Origin: Bacteroidaceae bacterium
GTDB taxonomy: Bacteria; Bacteroidota; Bacteroidia; Bacteroidales; Bacteroidaceae
NCBI GenBank assembly: GCA_017428785.1
Contig: JAFRQD010000030.1
Location: 120,598 to 184,597, forward strand
DNA length: 64,000 bases
Direction: 5' to 3'
Shown: one piece after another, positions 36,775 to 46,088 of the stretch
Layout of the letters: each line of letters opens with the position of its first letter
Numbering within the stretch: position 1 is the first letter of the stretch
Notes under the pieces: generated by a model
Told to the model about the DNA's origin: nothing
The model's database searches: none
Seen by the model: only the letters and a program-made list of their open reading frames with translations
Program-made: the position numbers and the translations under genes

Positions 36775-39120
36775 ATGAAAGCAAAGCTCATAATTTTCCT
36801 GGCGGTACTGATCCCGATGGGGGCTGTGGCGCAAAGTGACGAAACGATGTCGCAAGTGATAGAACGCGGCCTGCAAAGGGCTACCAGCCAGTCGCTGCTA
36901 ATGGCCAACACATTGAAGGACAAAAAGGACGCGCTGCCACGCACCTACGAGAAGGGGCAGCTGCAGACCTGCCGCTACGACAATTGGGTGTCGGGCTTCT
37001 TCCCGGGTGTCCTGTGGCTGCTCTATGAGAACAACAGCGACGAACAGTTGCGACACTTTGCCGAGCTCTTTACCGACCGTGTGGAGCCTGCCAAGAAACT
37101 CACCGACACACACGACCTGGGCTTCATGCTGTACTGCAGTTTCGGTCAGGGCTACCGGCTCACGGGCAACAAGCACTATCTGGATGTCATCAACGAAGGC
37201 ACACAGAGCCTGCTCACGCGGTGGAACCCTAAACTGGGCGTCATTCGCTCTTGGGACTTCGGCAAGCAATGGCAGTATCCCGTCATCATCGACAACATGA
37301 TGAACCTCGAGATGCTTTGCTTCATGACACACGAGTTCTCCGACCGACGCTATGTGAAAGTAGCGGAGACACACGCCAAAACCACCATGAAGAACCACTT
37401 CCGCGAAGACTACAGCACATACCATGTGGTATCATACGACACCATAACCGGTCAGCCTCACGCCAAGAACACAGCTCAGGGCTATGCCGACGGCAGTGCC
37501 TGGGCACGCGGTCAGGCATGGGGACTGTATGGCTACACAATGATGTACCGCGAGACGCGGAATCCCATCTTCCTGGAGCAGGCCCGCAACATCGGGAAAT
37601 TCCTGCTGAGCCACCCCAGACTGCCAGCCGACGGAGTGCCCTATTGGGACTATGACGCCCCCGACATACCAAATGCGAAGCGTGACGCATCGGCTGCCGC
37701 CGTCATGGCCTCCGCTCTGATAGAGCTGAGTCAGCTCGACCCGGGTGAGATGGCACCGAAGTGGCTGGCCATGGCTGAGAAACAGCTGCGCTCGCTCAGT
37801 TCGCCCGCATACCTCGCAGAGGAAGGAGAGCAAGGCGGCTTTATCCTGAAGCACGGCCTGGGCCACATGCCCGAGAAGAGGGAAATCGACGTTCCCCTCA
37901 CCTACGGCGACTACTATTACATAGAGGCATTGATGCGCATGAAGAAGCTGTTGGGAAAGCCGACAGGCATGGACAACCGGCGCCTGTGGGTGCAGGAAAT
38001 GACCCGCATTGCGCGTCCGGTCCTGGAGAACTTGGCAGCAGGAACGCTGAAGCAGAAAATGCCATTCGAGTCACTCTCCGACGACCCTTTGCGCCGCGAG
38101 GTGTCGTACCTCGAGGCTGTGGGGCGCACCATCTGCGGCATCGCCCCGTGGCTGGAGCTCGGCCCGGACAAGAATGATGAAGAGGGGCAACTGCGTGCGC
38201 AGTACATCGAGCTTGTCGTGAAGGGACTCAAGAACGCCGTCAACCCCAGCTCGCCCGACCATCTCATGTTCGACAACCGGCACACCCAGCCGCTGGTGGA
38301 TGCTGCTTTCCTGGCCGAAGGTCTCTTGCGGGCACCGACGCAAATATGGGGGAAGCTGGACAAAAAGACTCGCAGCTGGCTCGTGAACGAGTGGAAGACC
38401 TCGCGGAGCATCAAGCCCTACGAGAGCAACTGGCTGCTTTTCGCCTCCATCGTCGAGGCTGCCCTGCTGGAGTTCACAGGAGAATACGATGCGGAACGCC
38501 TGAACTACGGCGTCAGGAAGTTCCGCGAAGAGTGGTACAAGGGAGATGGCTGGTACGGGGACGGCAACGCCTTCCATCTGGACTTTTATAACAGCCTTGT
38601 CATCCATCCGATGTTCACCGAGGTGCTTCGCATCATGAAGAAGCACAACCTGGCCGGCGCCGACTTCCTGCCCACTCAGGAGAAGCGGCACGGACGGCTG
38701 GCAGCGTCGCTGGAGCGTATGATTTCGCCCGAAGGCGCCTATCCCGTCACAGGCCGCTCCATCACTTATCGCTTCGGAGCCTTCCATGCCCTCTCGGATG
38801 CCGCGCTGCTGCACCTGCTTCCGACGGACGTCAGCCCAGCCGCTGTGCGTTGTGCCCTCACCGCCGTTATCCAGCGCCAGCTGAGCCAACCGCTCACTTT
38901 CGACAAGGACGGCTGGCTTCGCATAGGCTATACCGGCAGCCAGATACACATGGCTGAGGAATACATCAACACGGGAAGCATCTATCTCTGCATGGCAGTC
39001 TTCCTGCCCCTCGGCCTTCCCGCCGATGACCCGTTCTGGGCAAGTCCCGCCACCGACTGGACGTCGCTCAACGCCTGGAACGGCGTCGATGTCGGGGCTG
39101 ACCACGCTATTGGGAACTAA
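36775..39120 (+). CDS. Secreted GH88/GH105-type hydrolase fused to a DUF2264 domain
   Basis: 781 residues; signal peptide MKAKLIIFLAVLIPMGAVAQ. Residues about 25-395 form a six-hairpin barrel of unsaturated glucuronyl/galacturonyl hydrolase type: Asp114 in THDLGF and Asp173 in IIDNMMN match the catalytic pair, and ARGQAWGLYG is present. Residues about 400-780 match DUF2264 (GSQIHMAEEYINTG near the end), a family linked in recent work to uronic acid-containing glycans. A fusion would combine cleavage of an unsaturated uronic acid with a second activity on the same substrate in the periplasm. It begins 27 bases after cvpA, where related genomes place sufB. Its end overlaps the convergent gene by four bases. 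Confidence 0.82.
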   Translation: MKAKLIIFLAVLIPMGAVAQSDETMSQVIERGLQRATSQSLLMANTLKDKKDALPRTYEKGQLQTCRYDNWVSGFFPGVLWLLYENNSDEQLRHFAELFTDRVEPAKKLTDTHDLGFMLYCSFGQGYRLTGNKHYLDVINEGTQSLLTRWNPKLGVIRSWDFGKQWQYPVIIDNMMNLEMLCFMTHEFSDRRYVKVAETHAKTTMKNHFREDYSTYHVVSYDTITGQPHAKNTAQGYADGSAWARGQAWGLYGYTMMYRETRNPIFLEQARNIGKFLLSHPRLPADGVPYWDYDAPDIPNAKRDASAAAVMASALIELSQLDPGEMAPKWLAMAEKQLRSLSSPAYLAEEGEQGGFILKHGLGHMPEKREIDVPLTYGDYYYIEALMRMKKLLGKPTGMDNRRLWVQEMTRIARPVLENLAAGTLKQKMPFESLSDDPLRREVSYLEAVGRTICGIAPWLELGPDKNDEEGQLRAQYIELVVKGLKNAVNPSSPDHLMFDNRHTQPLVDAAFLAEGLLRAPTQIWGKLDKKTRSWLVNEWKTSRSIKPYESNWLLFASIVEAALLEFTGEYDAERLNYGVRKFREEWYKGDGWYGDGNAFHLDFYNSLVIHPMFTEVLRIMKKHNLAGADFLPTQEKRHGRLAASLERMISPEGAYPVTGRSITYRFGAFHALSDAALLHLLPTDVSPAAVRCALTAVIQRQLSQPLTFDKDGWLRIGYTGSQIHMAEEYINTGSIYLCMAVFLPLGLPADDPFWASPATDWTSLNAWNGVDVGADHAIGN

Positions 39121-39761
39121 GCCCAATCATCTGTCATACCGCTGAGGTCTTCTTGCAACACCGGCTGGCTGTCGTTCCAATAGTCGAAGAAGTCCTGAGG
39201 TTGAGGGGCGCAGTCGTTCTGCGCCTCAAGGAGGAGTAGTTCCCTTTGCTGGCGGTCGCGCATCTCGCGGGCCATAGCGACGAAGTATTCCCGCGTATCC
39301 TGCCAATCACAGTCGTACATCTCGTACCAGAGCGCGTCGTACCAGCCATCGCCAGCCCGATACGCCCAGCTGTCGCGTCCATGAGCGTCGGACAGCCCCA
39401 CGCGACGCTCCACATCATCGATGCGACGGCCTAGCATCTCGCAGACGCCGTCGGAGATGACGTCCCTGAGCCGCACATATTCCGGACGGAAATGCACGTC
39501 GATCCAATCGTTGTAGTCCTTCATGTGGATTTGTCTGAGCGTGTATTTCCAGACCTTCAGCGCCCACATCAGATGCCCGGCTTCCGCACAGAGGTCGCCC
39601 AGCAGGAGCCCTTTCTGCGCTTTGCGGGCACAGACCGAAGCCGCCCTGACCACGCGTATGCCTTTGTTCACGATGGCATTCAACATCCTGGCTTCCAGGT
39701 ACACAACTCCCTCGTTGGGCGTACATCTGCACACCCAATCATGATTGAAATGTTTTCTCAC
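39117..39761 (-). CDS. Conserved-looking protein of unknown function
   Basis: 214 residues if the GTG at 39761 is used; an ATG at 39686 (MLNAIVNKG...) is an alternative start. No signal peptide. The chain is helical and charged, with Cys residues near the start (WVCRC) and many Trp/Asp/Tyr residues in the second half (GWYDALWYEMYDCDW). No family is recognised. Its end overlaps the hydrolase gene on the other strand by four bases. A 90-base hairpin cluster with a 12-bp closing stem lies only 15 bases upstream of its start. Confidence 0.55.
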   Translation of the reverse strand: MRKHFNHDWVCRCTPNEGVVYLEARMLNAIVNKGIRVVRAASVCARKAQKGLLLGDLCAEAGHLMWALKVWKYTLRQIHMKDYNDWIDVHFRPEYVRLRDVISDGVCEMLGRRIDDVERRVGLSDAHGRDSWAYRAGDGWYDALWYEMYDCDWQDTREYFVAMAREMRDRQQRELLLLEAQNDCAPQPQDFFDYWNDSQPVLQEDLSGMTDDWA

Positions 39762-39775
39762 GATTAAACGGTTTT

Positions 39776-39865
39776 AGTGTAACAACAATAAATAAAAGAA
39801 CACGCTGCACACCCTTCTTCCGAAGGGCGGCATTCAGGTTCCTGAGAACCATCTGTTGTTACACT
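39776..39865 (-). ncRNA. Candidate structured RNA: two hairpins inside a 12-bp closing stem
   Basis: Perfect arms AGTGTAACAACA (39776-39787) and TGTTGTTACACT (39854-39865) enclose CCCTTC-TTCC-GAAGGG (39812-39827) and GGTTC-CTGA-GAACC (39837-39850). On the minus strand it would form part of the 5' leader of the gene at 39117-39761. It could instead be a short mobile element with 12-bp ends. Confidence 0.5.
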
Positions 39866-40049: not shown

Positions 40050-40430
40050 CGGAAACGCTCTAGAATCGCCGAAAATCCATTTACCCTTACTTATCCACCC
40101 TTTTTCCGTTTTTCGCGCTTAGAACGCGAACATTTCATAACTGTTTGATTTACAAGTGGCGTTTTCTAATGGCCGATGGCCAATCTGGATTGTTCAATGG
40201 TCAGATTGCCAACTCCAACTTACAAAACAGCCCATTTCATCGCATTTTTGCACACTTTTCCGCCTGTGGAATCCACAATCGCCGCATGGGGAAAATACAA
40301 ACGCCGCACGCGGCGTTGACCAACTTCGCGTGCGGCGTTTGGAATCCCTCCACCCGGCGCCACCAAATCCGGCGTTTTGCGCTCCCTTTTTCCCCACTTT
40401 ACAGCGTGTGCAATAACTGACACTTTGCTA
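40050..40430. repeat. Duplicated intergenic module (copy 2), contains a family A array
   Basis: Same block order as 17690-18060: CGCGCTTAGAACGCGA, CATTTCATAACTG, GGCGTTTTCTAATGGC, CCCATTTCATCGCA, then 22-bp GC units (40279-40376). Confidence 0.7.
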
Positions 40431-40557: not shown

Positions 40558-40590
40558 TTTGGTGCTATTGCGTTTTTGGTGTACCTTTGC
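40558..40590 (+). promoter_or_regulatory. Promoter of the AAA+ gene leader
   Basis: TTTG 40558-40561, 20-base spacer, TACCTTTGC 40582-40590: a full consensus match. Start expected near 40597, leaving about 320 bases before the AAA+ ATG. Confidence 0.78.
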
Positions 40591-40596
40591 CCCCAG

Positions 40597-40874
40597 TTTT
40601 GAAAACTATCACACAACATTTCATTTAGGTACATGAAGAAAAACATCAGTGGATTGACCAGCTGCAGGGCTGTCCTGTCGCACAGTTAATGCTGTGCCAT
40701 AGAACTCGCATCACCCATGCAGGACTGTATCCTGATGTGCGCTCTTTGACTTATTGTACCCATCCTGTGTTTGTGTGATAGGGAAATCATCCAATGAAAT
40801 CTCTATGGTAACCGCGGGCATCTGCTTCGGCATTTGCCCTAAAACTCTTGTGCCCTTTACTGAAAGGGTTTTTT
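40597..40874 (+). ncRNA. Structured leader or small RNA with its own terminator
   Basis: The region runs from the predicted start to a terminator. A long-range 10-bp helix can form between CTATCACACA (40606-40615) and TGTGTGATAG (40772-40781), enclosing hairpins GCACAG/CTGTGC and CAGGA/TCCTG. A further hairpin GGGCA...TTCG...TGCCC (40816-40839) and the terminator follow. An 18-codon ORF (MKKNISGLTSCRAVLSHS, 40633-40689) lies inside. It may be an attenuation leader for the AAA+ gene or a free small RNA. It does not match any RNA class I recognise. Confidence 0.5.
40853..40874 (+). terminator. Intrinsic terminator inside the AAA+ gene leader
   Basis: CCCTTT / AAAGGG stem with a 4-base loop, followed directly by six T residues (40869-40874), 45 bases before the ATG. 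Confidence 0.7.
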
Positions 40875-40918
40875 CCTTATTGTTTTATTATGATTATCAT
40901 TAAACAAAAGAGATTATT

Positions 40919-42562
40919 ATGACTGGAAACAAACTTATAACTGAATTCAAGAAACAGAACAGGGACACTATCTGGCAGCACCTCGAATCGCTTGCAACGA
41001 ACCGCAAGGTCTATTCCGATAGCATGAAGGGCATCCATCCTTACCTGCGAAACAATACATTATTTATATATGCCGCTCATAAGAGTCTGGTGGTGGTCTG
41101 CCTGGACAACTGTCCGCCGAAGGAAGAACTGGCCGACGAGGCGCCCTTCAACCTGGAGGACCCACTCTATTTCAGCGAGAACAGCCACCGCGTCAGCCCC
41201 GTCTGGCAGCTGTCCGAGACAATCAACCTCATCAGAAAGAAGATGGCAGAGGGCCGCAACGACTGGCCCATCCTGGGCGTACTGCTTACGGAAAGCACGA
41301 TCATCAACGCCAAAGACATGCAGGATGTCTGGGACGAGATGGATGTCAAAGTCATCGACCGTGCGGACCTCGACGTCGAGCAAACCTTCGCCACACATCC
41401 CGACGAGGAGCTCACCTTCGGCACGATGATTATGAACTTACTCCGGGAGCTCGACGAAGAAAAGCGCCCCAAGGAGTCGTCCATCGGAAAGGAAGAGGAT
41501 GAGTTCGCCGCCATGCTCGAGAAGTTCCTCAACGACGACTCGGGAAACAAGAAAAAGGAGGGGGAGAAAGATGAGGGAGAAGACGATGACGAGGAGGATG
41601 AGATGGAGGAAAAGGAGACGCCCTTCGGAAGCGTCGGCTCCGACGTCGGCCTGCCGTCGGGCATCATCGAGCAGAACAACAATGTAAGCGTGAAGGTAAA
41701 AGTCCTGCCTCCCTTGGCCAATCCCCGAAAGGAGCTGGACAAACTGGTGGGCTGTCAGGAGATAAAGAAACGCATGGACGAGCTGTTGGCACTCACCCGC
41801 TACAACAAGATGGTGCACGATGCCTTCCCCAACGCCAAACAGCACGAGGTTTCGCTCCACAGCATCTTCTTCGGACGGCCCGGAACAGGCAAAACCACCG
41901 TCTGCAAGATATTCGGTTCGCTGCTCCACGAGGCAGGCGCCCTGTCGAAGGGGCATGTGTTGGTCACCGACCGCGGCACCTTCATCGGGACACTGTGGGG
42001 CGACGAGGAACGCAGCGTCCGACAGGTGTTGGAGATGGCTCAAGGAGGGGTGCTCATGATAGACGAGGCTTACCTCCTCAACAGCAAGCACGAGAACGAC
42101 CCGGGGCGAATAGCCATACAGATGCTGATGGAAGTGCTGGCCGACGAGAAGCAGCGCGACATTGCCGTCGTGCTGTGTGGCTATAAGGAGCCAATGATGC
42201 AACTGCTCGACACCAACCCCGGACTCCACTCCCGCTTCCCAAACCGCTTCGAATTCAACGACTTCACGGTTGACGAGCTGATGGAGATTACGCGTCGCCG
42301 CATCGGAGAATACCAATACCGCCTTACCCGTCAGGCATGGCAGAAGTACAAAGAAATGCTCACGGCAGCCTATCAGATGCGCGACCCCCAGTCGTGGGGC
42401 AATGCCCGCTTCGTGAGCAATCAACTGGAACGCATCTTCATCCGGCATGCCCAGCGCTGCGTGAAGCAACAACCTGCCGACGGACAGCGACTGCTCACCA
42501 TTACGCCAGCCGACATCACGCCCATCGATGTGCCACGCCCCAAGCCCCGAATCGGATTCTGA
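40919..42562 (+). CDS. AAA+ ATPase of the CbxX/SpoVK type with an acidic linker
   Basis: 547 residues. Residues 1-185 form an N-terminal domain without a recognised family. Residues about 200-240 are a Lys/Glu/Asp-rich linker. The AAA+ core starts near residue 280 (LDKLVGCQEIKKRMDELLAL); Walker A is FGRPGTGKTTVC, Walker B GGVLMIDEAYLLNS, and sensor and arginine-finger-like residues lie in RFPNRFEFND. In bacteria CbxX/SpoVK ATPases act as remodelling machines. The substrate is unknown and no RuBisCO or sporulation context is present. It has no cotranscribed partner here and sits behind the long structured leader. Confidence 0.82.
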   Translation: MTGNKLITEFKKQNRDTIWQHLESLATNRKVYSDSMKGIHPYLRNNTLFIYAAHKSLVVVCLDNCPPKEELADEAPFNLEDPLYFSENSHRVSPVWQLSETINLIRKKMAEGRNDWPILGVLLTESTIINAKDMQDVWDEMDVKVIDRADLDVEQTFATHPDEELTFGTMIMNLLRELDEEKRPKESSIGKEEDEFAAMLEKFLNDDSGNKKKEGEKDEGEDDDEEDEMEEKETPFGSVGSDVGLPSGIIEQNNNVSVKVKVLPPLANPRKELDKLVGCQEIKKRMDELLALTRYNKMVHDAFPNAKQHEVSLHSIFFGRPGTGKTTVCKIFGSLLHEAGALSKGHVLVTDRGTFIGTLWGDEERSVRQVLEMAQGGVLMIDEAYLLNSKHENDPGRIAIQMLMEVLADEKQRDIAVVLCGYKEPMMQLLDTNPGLHSRFPNRFEFNDFTVDELMEITRRRIGEYQYRLTRQAWQKYKEMLTAAYQMRDPQSWGNARFVSNQLERIFIRHAQRCVKQQPADGQRLLTITPADITPIDVPRPKPRIGF

Positions 42563-43265: not shown

Positions 43266-46088
43266 ATGCTTTCTTTGATTGGACTTCTCGCCGCAATGCT
43301 TCTTTCCCTCACGACGACCGAAGGGGGAAACGAGCGAATAGACCTGTCTGGCAGGTGGCAGTTTGGCATGGGCGACAAAGAACACTACGACGACCACATC
43401 CAGCTGCCCGGTTCTATGCTGACAAACGGGAAGGGCTACGATGTGGACATTCACACGCAGTGGACGGGCTCGCTCTACGACTCGAGCTATTTCTTCAATC
43501 CCTACATGGAGCCCTACCGACGGCTGGGGCAGATGAAGTTCCCTTTCTTCTTGACGCCTGAGAAACACTACGTGGGCAATGCCTGGTACAAGCGTACCGT
43601 AATGGTGCCGATGGAATGGAGCGGCAGGAATGTGACGCTCTTCCTGGAGCGTCCCCATATAGAGACAACTGTCTTTGTGAACGGGGAGGAAGTCGGGCAT
43701 CAGATGTCGCTATCAGTCCCGCACTGCTATGATGTGACGCGACACGTGAAGTGGGGCGAACAGAACGAGATAGCCATCCGCATATACAACGGCATAGAGA
43801 ATGTCTGCGTAGGCCAGGATTCACATTCCGTGACAGACCAGACACAAGGGAACTGGAACGGCATTGTGGGGCGCATGGAGCTGCAGGCTATGCCCATCAT
43901 CTGGAGGAAAAAGGTCATACCGCATCTGGAGGAGAAGAAGGTGGAGATAGTTGTCAACGAGCAGGCCTACCTTCTGGATTTAGGCGAGGAGGCCGAACTA
44001 TGGGACGAGTTTAGCCCGCATCTTTACACGCGGACTGTGGACTATCAGGGCATGAAGGTGCCTGTGACGTTCGGTCTGCGGGAGATTAAGATAGAGGGGC
44101 GGCAGTTCTACATCAACGGCCGGCCTTTATTCCTGCGGGGAACGGTGGAGAACTGCTGCTTTCCCGAGACGGGTTATGCGCCGATGGACGAGGCGGAGTG
44201 GCTGCGCGTGTTCCGGAAGTGCAAGGAGTACGGCCTGAATCATGTGCGCTTCCATAGTTTTTGCCCACCGGAGGCGGCCTTTGCTGCTGCCGACAAGGTG
44301 GGAATCTATCTGCAGCCAGAGGGTCCTTCGTGGCCTAATCATGGAGTGAAACTGCGCAGAGGGCAGAAGATCGACGCCTATCTTCTGGAGGAATCGAAGC
44401 GCATCGTCGACACCTATGGCCACCATCCTTCGTTTGTGATGATGGCGGCAGGCAACGAACCTGCCGGCGACTGGGTGAGCTACTGCAACGACTGGGTGAA
44501 GCAGATGCATGCCTACGATGCCACGAAGGTGTATTGCGGAGCGTCCGTCGGCGGCGGATGGGCGTGGGACAATGAATCGGAGTATCATGTGAAAGGCGGT
44601 GCTCGAGGCCTGGACTGGACAAGCAAAGCTCCCCAGTCGCAAGACAACCATTACGATGGCATACTGCGTCCGAGGAGTTATACGGGAGAAGGCGACAATC
44701 AGTCTCCCGTCATCGCCCATGAGCAGGGGCAGTGGTGTGCCTTCCCCGACTTCAAGGAGATAACGCAGTATTCAGGGGTTTACAAGGCCCGCAACTTCGA
44801 GATATTCCGCGACCTGCTGCGCGACAACGGGATGGAGGCAATGGCCGAGAAGTTCCTGATGGCCAGCGGAAAGCTCCAGACGCTGTGCTATAAATATGAT
44901 ATCGAGCGGAACCTGCGGACGAAGGACTATGCAGGCTTCCAGCTCCTGGCCTTGAATGACTACAGCGGTCAGGGCACAGCACTCGTCGGGCCGCTGAACG
45001 TGCATTGGAGGGAGAAGGGTTATGTCACAGCCCAGCAGTGGCGAGAGTTCTGCAGTCCCGTCGTGCTGCTGGCCCGCTTCCCGAAGTTCGTCTTTGAGAA
45101 CGACGAGACGCTGCGCATTCCCATCGAATGTATGAATGCCAGCGACAAGGAGGTGAAGGGCCAGCCCTTGATTTATGAGATATGGCAGGACGACAGGCGC
45201 ATGGTGGCCTGCGACACGCTGTTTGCAGGAAGCATCGCCGTGGGCAAGAACCACGAAACAGGTATTGTCAGCCTGCAGCTCGACCAGATACATGAGCCGT
45301 CGAAGATGACGCTGCGTGCAAGGCTGGGCAACCTGACGCAGAACCATTGGGACTTCTGGGTGTATCAGAAGGGACAACAGACAACAGACAACGGACAACA
45401 GACAAGCTTTAGCTCGACGAAGTCAACGGACAACAGACAAGCTTTAGCTCGACGAAGTCAACAGACAACGGACAATGGTCAACGGTCAATATACATCGCC
45501 GACTCTCTGGACGCTCAGGCGCTTAAAGTCCTGAAGAAGGGAGGCAAAGTGCTCCTCACCGCAGCAGGAAGGGTGAAACTGGGCAGCGATGTGGTGCAGC
45601 ACTATTTGCCTGTGTTCTGGAACACATCGTGGTTCAAAATGCGTCCGCCTCACACAACTGGTGCCTACATCGACACAAAGCATCCGCTCTTCAGGCATGG
45701 ATTCCCAACTGACGACTGGAGCAACCTGAACTGGTGGGAGTTGCTGAACAAGGCGCAGGTGATGAACCTGGCGGAACTGCCAAAGGACTACCAGTCGCCC
45801 ATACAGCCCATCGACACTTGGCATGTGTCGAGGAAGCTGGGTATGATGGTGGAAGCACGCGTGCTGAAAGGCAAACTGCTGATGACCACGATGGACATCG
45901 TGAGCAACCTGGAGCGGCGAATCGTGGCCCGACAGATGCGAAAGGCAATCCTCGACTATATGGAGAGCAGCGACTTCAAGCCGGAGCTGATGCTCGATGT
46001 CCAAATCATCCGCGACTTCTACACGAAACAGGCATCAGGAGTCAACATGTTCACAAAAGACTCGCCCGACGAGCTGAAACAGAAATAA
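43266..46088 (+). CDS. Secreted GH2 hydrolase (beta-galactosidase/glucuronidase-like) with a repeat insertion
   Basis: 940 residues with a short signal peptide. Opening RIDLSGRWQFGMGDKEHYDD is typical of this GH2 subfamily. Catalytic residues are the acid/base Glu398 (MMAAGNEPAGDW) and probable nucleophile Glu486 (IAHEQGQWCAFPDF), the latter in the HE-GQW-PD form common in Bacteroidota GH2 enzymes acting on plant glycans. Residues about 702-742 (QQTTDNGQQT...DNGQR) are low-complexity and encoded by simple repeats, including two perfect 35-bp tandem copies (45393-45462). The downstream 200 residues look like ordinary family sequence, so the frame is restored. A one-copy change would shift the frame and truncate the C-terminus. 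Confidence 0.82.
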   Translation: MLSLIGLLAAMLLSLTTTEGGNERIDLSGRWQFGMGDKEHYDDHIQLPGSMLTNGKGYDVDIHTQWTGSLYDSSYFFNPYMEPYRRLGQMKFPFFLTPEKHYVGNAWYKRTVMVPMEWSGRNVTLFLERPHIETTVFVNGEEVGHQMSLSVPHCYDVTRHVKWGEQNEIAIRIYNGIENVCVGQDSHSVTDQTQGNWNGIVGRMELQAMPIIWRKKVIPHLEEKKVEIVVNEQAYLLDLGEEAELWDEFSPHLYTRTVDYQGMKVPVTFGLREIKIEGRQFYINGRPLFLRGTVENCCFPETGYAPMDEAEWLRVFRKCKEYGLNHVRFHSFCPPEAAFAAADKVGIYLQPEGPSWPNHGVKLRRGQKIDAYLLEESKRIVDTYGHHPSFVMMAAGNEPAGDWVSYCNDWVKQMHAYDATKVYCGASVGGGWAWDNESEYHVKGGARGLDWTSKAPQSQDNHYDGILRPRSYTGEGDNQSPVIAHEQGQWCAFPDFKEITQYSGVYKARNFEIFRDLLRDNGMEAMAEKFLMASGKLQTLCYKYDIERNLRTKDYAGFQLLALNDYSGQGTALVGPLNVHWREKGYVTAQQWREFCSPVVLLARFPKFVFENDETLRIPIECMNASDKEVKGQPLIYEIWQDDRRMVACDTLFAGSIAVGKNHETGIVSLQLDQIHEPSKMTLRARLGNLTQNHWDFWVYQKGQQTTDNGQQTSFSSTKSTDNRQALARRSQQTTDNGQRSIYIADSLDAQALKVLKKGGKVLLTAAGRVKLGSDVVQHYLPVFWNTSWFKMRPPHTTGAYIDTKHPLFRHGFPTDDWSNLNWWELLNKAQVMNLAELPKDYQSPIQPIDTWHVSRKLGMMVEARVLKGKLLMTTMDIVSNLERRIVARQMRKAILDYMESSDFKPELMLDVQIIRDFYTKQASGVNMFTKDSPDELKQK
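45393..45462 (+). repeat. Perfect tandem 35-bp duplication inside the GH2 coding sequence
   Basis: Copies at 45393-45427 and 45428-45462, both beginning GGACAACAGACAAGCTTT. They are read in different frames (TSFSSTKSTDN, then QALARRSQQ) because 35 is not a multiple of three. ACAACAGACAACGG-type heptad repeats flank them. Confidence 0.92.

Follow-up and report, generated by a model that had tools for sequence, protein, structure and literature searches.

The window analysed here, a stretch of 64,000 nucleotides (nt) from a Bacteroidaceae bacterium (assembly GCA_017428785.1, contig JAFRQD010000030.1, positions 120,598-184,597 of the forward strand), carries a gene for an AAA+ ATPase of the CbxX/SpoVK/CbbX type, preceded by a long structured leader with its own promoter. 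It is this leader, and in particular a boxA-like element and a short open reading frame (ORF) within it, that concerns us. An earlier examination of the same DNA, here called the sequence-only reading, had described the promoter, a long-range helix, the ORF and a terminator. Its coordinates all proved correct on re-checking, but boxA, the most conserved element of the leader, was absent from its account. The leader and its gene comprise the following features.

40558..40589, + strand: promoter, with TTTG at 40558-40561, a gap of 20 nt and TACCTTTG at 40582-40589.
40606..40615, + strand: 5' arm of helix P1, CTATCACACA, the exact complement of 40772-40781, kept in most relatives.
40628..40633, + strand: 5' arm of helix P2, GGTACA, which touches the AUG of the leader ORF and pairs with 40755-40760.
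40633..40689, + strand: leader ORF of 18 codons, MKKNISGLTSCRAVLSHS followed by a stop, with a conserved C-R-A-V core; it has a coding signature with synonymous codons.
40680..40697, + strand: hairpin GCACAG-UUAAUG-CUGUGC with the stop codon of the leader ORF in its loop, predicted by folding and a loose hairpin test.
40741..40756, + strand: boxA-like element GCTCTTTGACTTATTG, the most conserved block, its core common to 16S leaders of the genus.
40755..40760, + strand: 3' arm of P2, TGTACC, overlapping the 3' end of boxA, from pairing and permutation.
40772..40781, + strand: 3' arm of P1, TGTGTGATAG, from the sequence and relatives; its AUAG (40778-40781) is common to P4.
40778..40806, + strand: P4 hairpin, AUAGGGA / UCUCUAU, mutually exclusive with the end of P1, from covariation.
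40816..40839, + strand: P5 hairpin, GGGCAUCUGC-UUCG-GCAUUUGCCC (DNA GGGCATCTGC-TTCG-GCATTTGCCC), from covariation in helices 2 and 3.
40845..40875, + strand: P6, a conserved CUCUUGUGCCC with hairpin and T-run, terminator-like here and in a few relatives.
40919..42562, + strand: CbxX/SpoVK/CbbX-type AAA+ ATPase of 547 amino acids, with Pfam domains AAA and AAA_lid_6.

The leader is real and not a product of chance. It folds with -88.4 kcal/mol (z -4.2), which none of 200 shuffled sequences equalled; it is present in one copy in its own genome; and relatives bear out the promoter, P1, P2, the leader ORF and the 3' hairpins. The TAnnTTTG box of the promoter is found 49-74 nt 5' of the leader ORF in all 34 leaders compared, which were selected for an assignable leader ORF near P2. 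Promoters of Bacteroidetes are of the -33 TTTG / -7 TAnnTTTG type, so it is expected that a sigma-70 scan misses the leader promoter at 40558-40589. Transcription would start near 40597, and the transcript ends of the leader are predictions of the same kind. No Rfam 15 family matches the whole window at gathering score, and the leader searched at E up to 10 gives a single chance match (E 9.1). A 6S RNA-like fold was considered because the leader forms a long rod, and was ruled out for want of an Rfam match.

A DNA search of 139 genomes of the genus found leader matches in 16, the window's own genome included, and tblastn places the AAA+ gene next to the leader in 14 of these. The two exceptions are G032 (locus L012), split by a contig end so that the leader and most of the AAA+ gene lie on separate contigs, and G011 (L017), where a 39-nt match stands without the gene. 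A covariance model, R1, which covers the 3' domain only (boxA to P6), matches 24 of the 139 genomes at E<=0.001. The 20 genomes that reach E<=1.3e-6 all carry a close AAA+ homologue; in 19 of them the start of that gene has a boxA 77-406 nt ahead of it, the other being the split G032. In G101, a weaker match (E 5.2e-5), the leader stands before an operon in which a homologue of a 214-amino-acid protein that is also encoded in the window (see below) is joined with the AAA+ gene, and no AAA+ homologue was found in the loci (L183, L185 and L186) of the weak matches in G054, G042 and G012. Across the family, R1 matches 31 of 399 genomes at E<=0.01, mostly weakly. Among the 30 loci L174-L203 an AAA+ homologue is within reach in 12 and, in longer stretches, in 2 more; the other 16 are weak matches (E 6.6e-5 or worse). 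Each of the six strong matches from beyond the genus (E<=2.6e-10) is followed by an AAA+ gene or operon, that in G383 by an operon of a gene for 403 amino acids and the AAA+ gene. In the order, searched with the stricter filters of large searches, only the window's own genome matched at E<=0.001 (1 of 295), none of the 294 others doing so. When species genomes were scanned with an AAA+ alignment, at least 74 named loci emerged, and almost all of those listed come under the titles Prevotella, Prevotellaceae, Bacteroidaceae or Bacteroidales. In Prevotella-type genomes, relatives that show compensating base changes stand ahead of CbxX/CbbX-type AAA+ genes. Both conservation and covariation are thus found upstream of orthologues, as the sequence-only reading had proposed to check, and its proposal of a structured regulatory leader for the AAA+ gene is upheld by conserved position, covariation and conserved promoter.

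The boxA-like element begins 51 nt 3' of the stop codon of the leader ORF. A MAFFT alignment of 14 leaders shows a nearly invariant block, TGYGYTCTTTGAYWTRTTG, together with clear helices. Within 400 nt upstream of 16S genes of the genus, the core GYTCTTTGA occurs exactly in 14 of 20 leaders and at one mismatch in 19 of 20, against none and one, respectively, for the reversed core. The gamma-proteobacterial boxA consensus is GYTCTTTAANA in the part of Baniulyte et al. 2017 (PMC5725501) drawn on here, and the window's GCTCTTTGAC departs from it by one mismatch (G for A). The element is thus close to known boxA sequences, and its placement in a leader after a promoter is, on sequence alone, also that of a boxA; we regard GCTCTTTGACTTATTG as boxA-like and as a candidate NusB-S10 site. 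Across 61 genomes of the genus there are 41 occurrences of the pattern GYTCTTTGAYWTRTTG and 5 of its reverse, and at up to one mismatch the window has 2 sites where 0.02 are expected. In the full 625,504 nt searched around the listed loci there are 62 boxA-like sites and 9 sites of the reversed motif. A boxA-like site (up to 2 mismatches) lies within 1100 nt upstream in 52 of the 74 AAA+ loci listed, 145-201 nt from the assigned ATG in 37 of the 52.

Some boxA sites of the genus have other surroundings. Those in L053 and L072 precede phage-type genes (Rha/antirepressor), as may be expected of antitermination sites, and several more have no clear gene behind them. Certain leaders (L012, L120, L121, L122, L123, L136, L141, L166 and L167) have hairpins inserted between ORF and boxA that carry a second boxA-like core folded back on itself, such as GTTCTTTGAGACTTCGTCTCGAAGACC in L121; these are possibly decoys.

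The leader ORF, mentioned in passing by the sequence-only reading, proved to have a coding signature. An ORF for a peptide with RAV or RVV (usually CRAV) precedes boxA in 28 of the 52 boxA-bearing AAA+ loci listed, as well as in the window and in G030, and is 13-18 codons long in 27 of these 30 leaders. Arg is kept in all 30 by way of CGA, AGG, CGG and CGT, Val in all 30 through four codons and Ala in 29 through three. Pairwise differences in the CRAV codons amount to 0.376 at the third position, against 0.134 at the first and 0.063 at the second, and the coding score is 16.3 in the true frame against 5.6 and 8.3 in the others. Since these leaders were taken from the 34 for having RAV or RVV (L106, L107, L110 and L113 were dropped), amino-acid identity is inflated; synonymous variety is not. 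A short ORF under coding selection, as leader-peptide regulation would have it, is accordingly found in 30 of the 34, chosen in that way, and the retention of C-R-A-V through synonymous codons suggests that the 18-codon ORF is translated.

Three helices, P1, P2 and P3, connect boxA and its flanking sequence with the stretch that leads up to, and includes, the start of the leader ORF. The exact 10-base-pair pairing of 40606-40615 with 40772-40781 (P1) stands as the sequence-only reading described it; in place of the two hairpins said to lie within it, RNAfold gives one long irregular arm. P2 takes the form GGUACA/UGUACC in one of two subtypes and AAUUGUAGCAA/UUGCUACAAUU in the second, and L135 has CCAAAAUAACAAU/AUUGUUAUUUUGG. 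Its arms pair with their own partners at a mean of -9.88 kcal/mol, against -7.00 when permuted (0 of 10,000 permutations), and permuting within subtypes again gives 0 of 10,000 (null -8.62). In P3 the first codons of the leader ORF pair with the 5' half of boxA (0 of 5000 permutations; 5 of 10,000 within subtypes). Further along, the CRAV codons pair with a segment 3' of the stop codon (2 of 5000 permutations, 29 leaders), and by a loose criterion the stop codon counts as unpaired inside a hairpin for 20 of the 34 leaders, one of them, L108, wrongly.

For the 3' domain we used an alignment, A4, of 38 rows picked by eye for that domain, in which the window and L020 are the same locus. P4, which excludes the end of P1, has both-sided changes in 4 of its 7 pairs, with 91.7% of cells paired, and forcing it in the window costs 1.0 kcal/mol. 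P4 and P5 together, the latter being the TTCG-loop hairpin correctly placed ahead of the terminator by the sequence-only reading, have such changes in 13 of 17 pairs, with a score of 0.322 against 0.192 for shuffled alignments (0 of 500). RNAalifold finds 41 pairs in 14 leaders, 16 of them with both-sided changes in at least one sequence. Alternative helices, P1/P4 and the CRAV hairpin, are predicted, and might in leader-peptide regulation depend on the ribosome.

That the leader is cis-regulatory follows from its conserved position and promoter, its coding mini-ORF and the covariation of its helices, and sequence comparison supports its anatomy and cis role well; from these we infer the mechanism and the direction of effect. 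What is unusual is the link of boxA, through P2 and P3, to the start of the mini-ORF. Most economically, access to boxA, and with it Nus-dependent elongation, would be controlled by the ribosomes that load on this mini-ORF. Ribosomes starting on the leader ORF would open P2 and P3, the freed boxA would bind NusB-S10, and the polymerase so modified would traverse the structured leader into the ATPase gene. Should initiation on the ORF fail, or a ribosome be held at the CRAV codons, the helices would re-partition and elongation would change. By analogy with rrn operons we favour boxA as an ON signal, both this sign and the nature of the signal being part of the proposal. That the leader acts in cis and reads translation, translation of the mini-ORF governing boxA and with it Nus-dependent transcription into the ATPase gene, we rate at about even chances.

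Several observations weigh against this. No boxA-like site (up to 2 mismatches, 1100 nt upstream) is present in 22 of the 74 AAA+ loci listed, and for 24 of the 52 boxA-bearing ones no RAV/RVV mini-ORF is listed: among these, L106, L107 and L110 have diverged, L113 stops early, L115 lies at a contig end and the remainder have nothing alike. P3 is weak in some leaders, L135 has P1 separate from P4, so that the two share nothing, and L123 and L136 have no P1 3' arm, P4 or P5, though the P1 5' arm is retained. The sequences are related, so the permutation counts are not strict probabilities. Finally, the predicted probability that boxA is unpaired is 0.34 in the 34 leaders and 0.38 in 19 rrn leaders (p = 0.22). 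A boxA specially buried in comparison with rrn is therefore not supported in these leaders (in eight leaders of another type, MNTS, described below, p = 0.03), and thermodynamics alone shows no gating.

Known systems share parts of this arrangement. The rrn leaders, 16S leaders of the genus among them, where boxA serves NusB-S10 antitermination, likewise have a boxA-like sequence with the core GYTCTTTGA between promoter and gene. The AAA+ leader differs in preceding a protein gene, in the tail after the core (CWTATTG, against MAGATTT in rrn) and in having its boxA tied to a mini-ORF by long-range helices. A paper on boxA and rut in tnaC is reportedly due to Konan and Yanofsky in 2000. The tnaC leader of tnaCAB, in the portion of PMC8429421 used here, combines a short leader peptide, a boxA discussed together with a rut site, and transcription attenuation; its peptide is different, and in the AAA+ leader boxA lies well past the stop codon, its pairing partner being the region where the ORF starts. 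The toiL upstream ORF of topAI-yjhQ senses translation stress through RNA refolding, as the leader ORF may, but exerts its effect at the gene's ribosome-binding site, and the part of its description consulted (PMC12121999) has no boxA. Going by the part of PMC5725501 covered here, few protein genes, as opposed to rRNA, have been shown to be regulated through a boxA, and in gamma-proteobacteria more are predicted to be. For protein genes of Bacteroidetes we found no description of it in the literature searched, of which parts of PMC5725501, PMC10250234, PMC8429421, PMC12121999 and PMC8040213 underlie our interpretation. Nor is the leader described in open-licence literature searched by title and start of abstract, the supplements of PMC8040213, a paper whose consulted part reports thousands of candidate RNAs, being outside that search.

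Two alternatives survive best, each of them unlikely. One is repression as in the suhB 5' untranslated region, where boxA also controls a protein-coding gene outside rRNA (PMC5725501, in part). A Nus complex on boxA would loop the RNA, block translation of the AAA+ gene and promote Rho-dependent termination, the leader ORF only setting the availability of boxA. Such repression operates on suhB in Escherichia coli according to the part of that paper drawn on, and here too a protein-coding gene follows boxA, and no intrinsic terminator is conserved. However, in suhB only 6 nt separate boxA from the Shine-Dalgarno sequence, whereas the boxA studied here, 145-201 nt before the ATG in 37 of the 52 listed loci, more resembles that of an rrn leader. 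For suhB, the same part of the paper describes neither a leader ORF nor a conserved long-range fold.

The other, to which we give similarly little weight, is an arrest-peptide sensor: CRAV would stall the ribosome on a ligand, an antibiotic or amino-acid shortage, the stall would choose between the CRAV-codon hairpin and later helices, and boxA would merely shield the leader from Rho. The strong conservation of C-R-A-V near the ORF end, the pairing of its codons with the downstream segment, the stop codon placed in a hairpin in about 19 of 34 leaders and the precedents of tnaC and toiL (PMC8429421 and PMC12121999, each in part) all fit. However, the ORF of L113 terminates before RAV, and the peptides of other boxA leaders are wholly different (MITTRK.., MKHLHL..APPGG, MNTS..PSGEP), so a single arrest motif is not the common denominator.

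Attenuation by a choice between terminator and antiterminator at 40852-40875 is improbable. The sequence-only reading saw an intrinsic terminator 45 nt before the ATG at 40919, and the window does have a good hairpin (40852-40869) followed by a T-run there; the P6 hairpin itself is conserved, its motif CUCUUGYGYCCC.. being present in 31 of 34 leaders. Yet nearly all relatives lack the T-run. A count of at least 6 T among the 8 nt that follow the hairpin is reached, of the 31 motif-bearing leaders, by the window and L134 alone; L102, L103, L114 and L166 have 5 T, and L135 has 7 T after a different hairpin. There is accordingly no conserved terminator hairpin with a U-run before the gene, and because the T-run is nearly peculiar to the window, neither attenuation nor a free small RNA, the two functions that the sequence-only reading had thought fitting, is a conserved one. 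Least probable by far is a stand-alone small RNA running from the leader promoter to 40874, for which there are the promoter and, in the window strain, a terminator, but against which speak the place of the strong matches before AAA+ genes or operons, the internal ORF with its coding signature and the lack of a conserved terminator.

By sequence, the AAA+ protein belongs to the superfamily of SpoVK, CbbX and EccA and is no equivalog of these. It matches the CbbX and EccA1 structures, and against the NCBIfam equivalogs CbbX, SpoVK and EccA it scores 209.7 of 423, 168.4 of 459 and 136.2 of 467 bits, below each cut-off. A defence system was considered and rejected: PADLOC returned five weak AAA+ matches (E 6.5e-5 to 0.018) and none for the 214-amino-acid protein. 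Open frames of about 1115-1180 amino acids with several tandem AAA+ domain matches occur in G019, G034, G060, G088, G092, G115 and others of the genus.

Upstream of the leader, on the other strand, lie two further features.

39117..39761, - strand: divergent gene for a protein of 214 amino acids with an invariant Cys, from sequence comparison.
39786..39801, - strand: second boxA-like element, with 1 mismatch, in the leader of the divergent gene, from the window scan.

The 214-amino-acid protein has no Pfam, NCBIfam or PADLOC match. Homologues occur within reach in 14 of the 74 AAA+ loci listed; 13 of them directly follow the AAA+ gene in the same orientation, that of L118 lies upstream on the opposite strand, and in L024/L224 a homologue stands between the boxA leader and the AAA+ gene. 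The CbbX-like AAA+ gene and the gene for this protein appear to form a two-gene module under shared control. The leader of the divergent gene has a promoter box TATCTTTG at 39925-39918 (- strand) and a tiny ORF, ATG ATG ACT GGA TAG, from 39899; a homologue in L194 has a tiny ORF ATG ACC GGA TAG and a boxA-like site, with no clear TAnnTTTG. Between the two divergent leaders, at 40300-40340, are strong GC-rich palindromes, AACGCCGCACGCGGCGTT..TTCGCGTGCGGCGTTT, perhaps a bidirectional terminator. Elsewhere in the window, at 45375-45488 inside the GH2 gene 43266-46088, a glycoside hydrolase contains the low-complexity stretch QQTTDNGQQT..QQTTDNGQRS, which looks like inserted repeat DNA translated in frame.

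Further boxA leaders were encountered in the course of this work. A second family comprises eight loci (L189, L193, L196, L197, L198, L200, L201 and L051), of which L193 and L196, with MNTS-type leaders, are near-identical; its mini-ORFs encode MNTS..PSGEP, MNVP..SPQ and variants, and the gene behind the leader (L189, L197, L201) is for a small protein of 120-138 amino acids without Pfam or NCBIfam match. In this family, ahead of other genes, AUGAACACAUC-like mini-ORF starts likewise pair with boxA, at GAUGUGUUCUUUGA (13 of 5000 permutations), in favour of the mechanism proposed above. Other AAA+ paralogues with boxA leaders have different recurring mini-ORFs: MITTRKTTDRTT.. in L061 and L068, varied in L070 and more loosely related in L052, or MKHLHL..APPG.. 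in L048, L049 and L074.

A translation-gated boxA, whose pairing with an ORF start lets ribosome loading switch Nus-dependent transcription, may extend in Prevotella-type Bacteroidales to AAA+ paralogues, the 214-amino-acid partner and the small proteins behind MNTS-type leaders, and so couple accessory genes more generally to the status of the ribosomes; we put this forward tentatively, as rather less probable than the role proposed for the leader itself. The locus reveals a conserved RNA family, unmatched in Rfam, whose covarying helices connect a boxA with a coding mini-ORF, in Prevotella-type genomes that come largely from rumen and gut samples. It raises two questions: do Nus factors control protein genes in Bacteroidales, and can loading of ribosomes on a leader ORF license antitermination? 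For the organism itself, the leader probably allows the cell to tune its ATPase to the state of its ribosomes.
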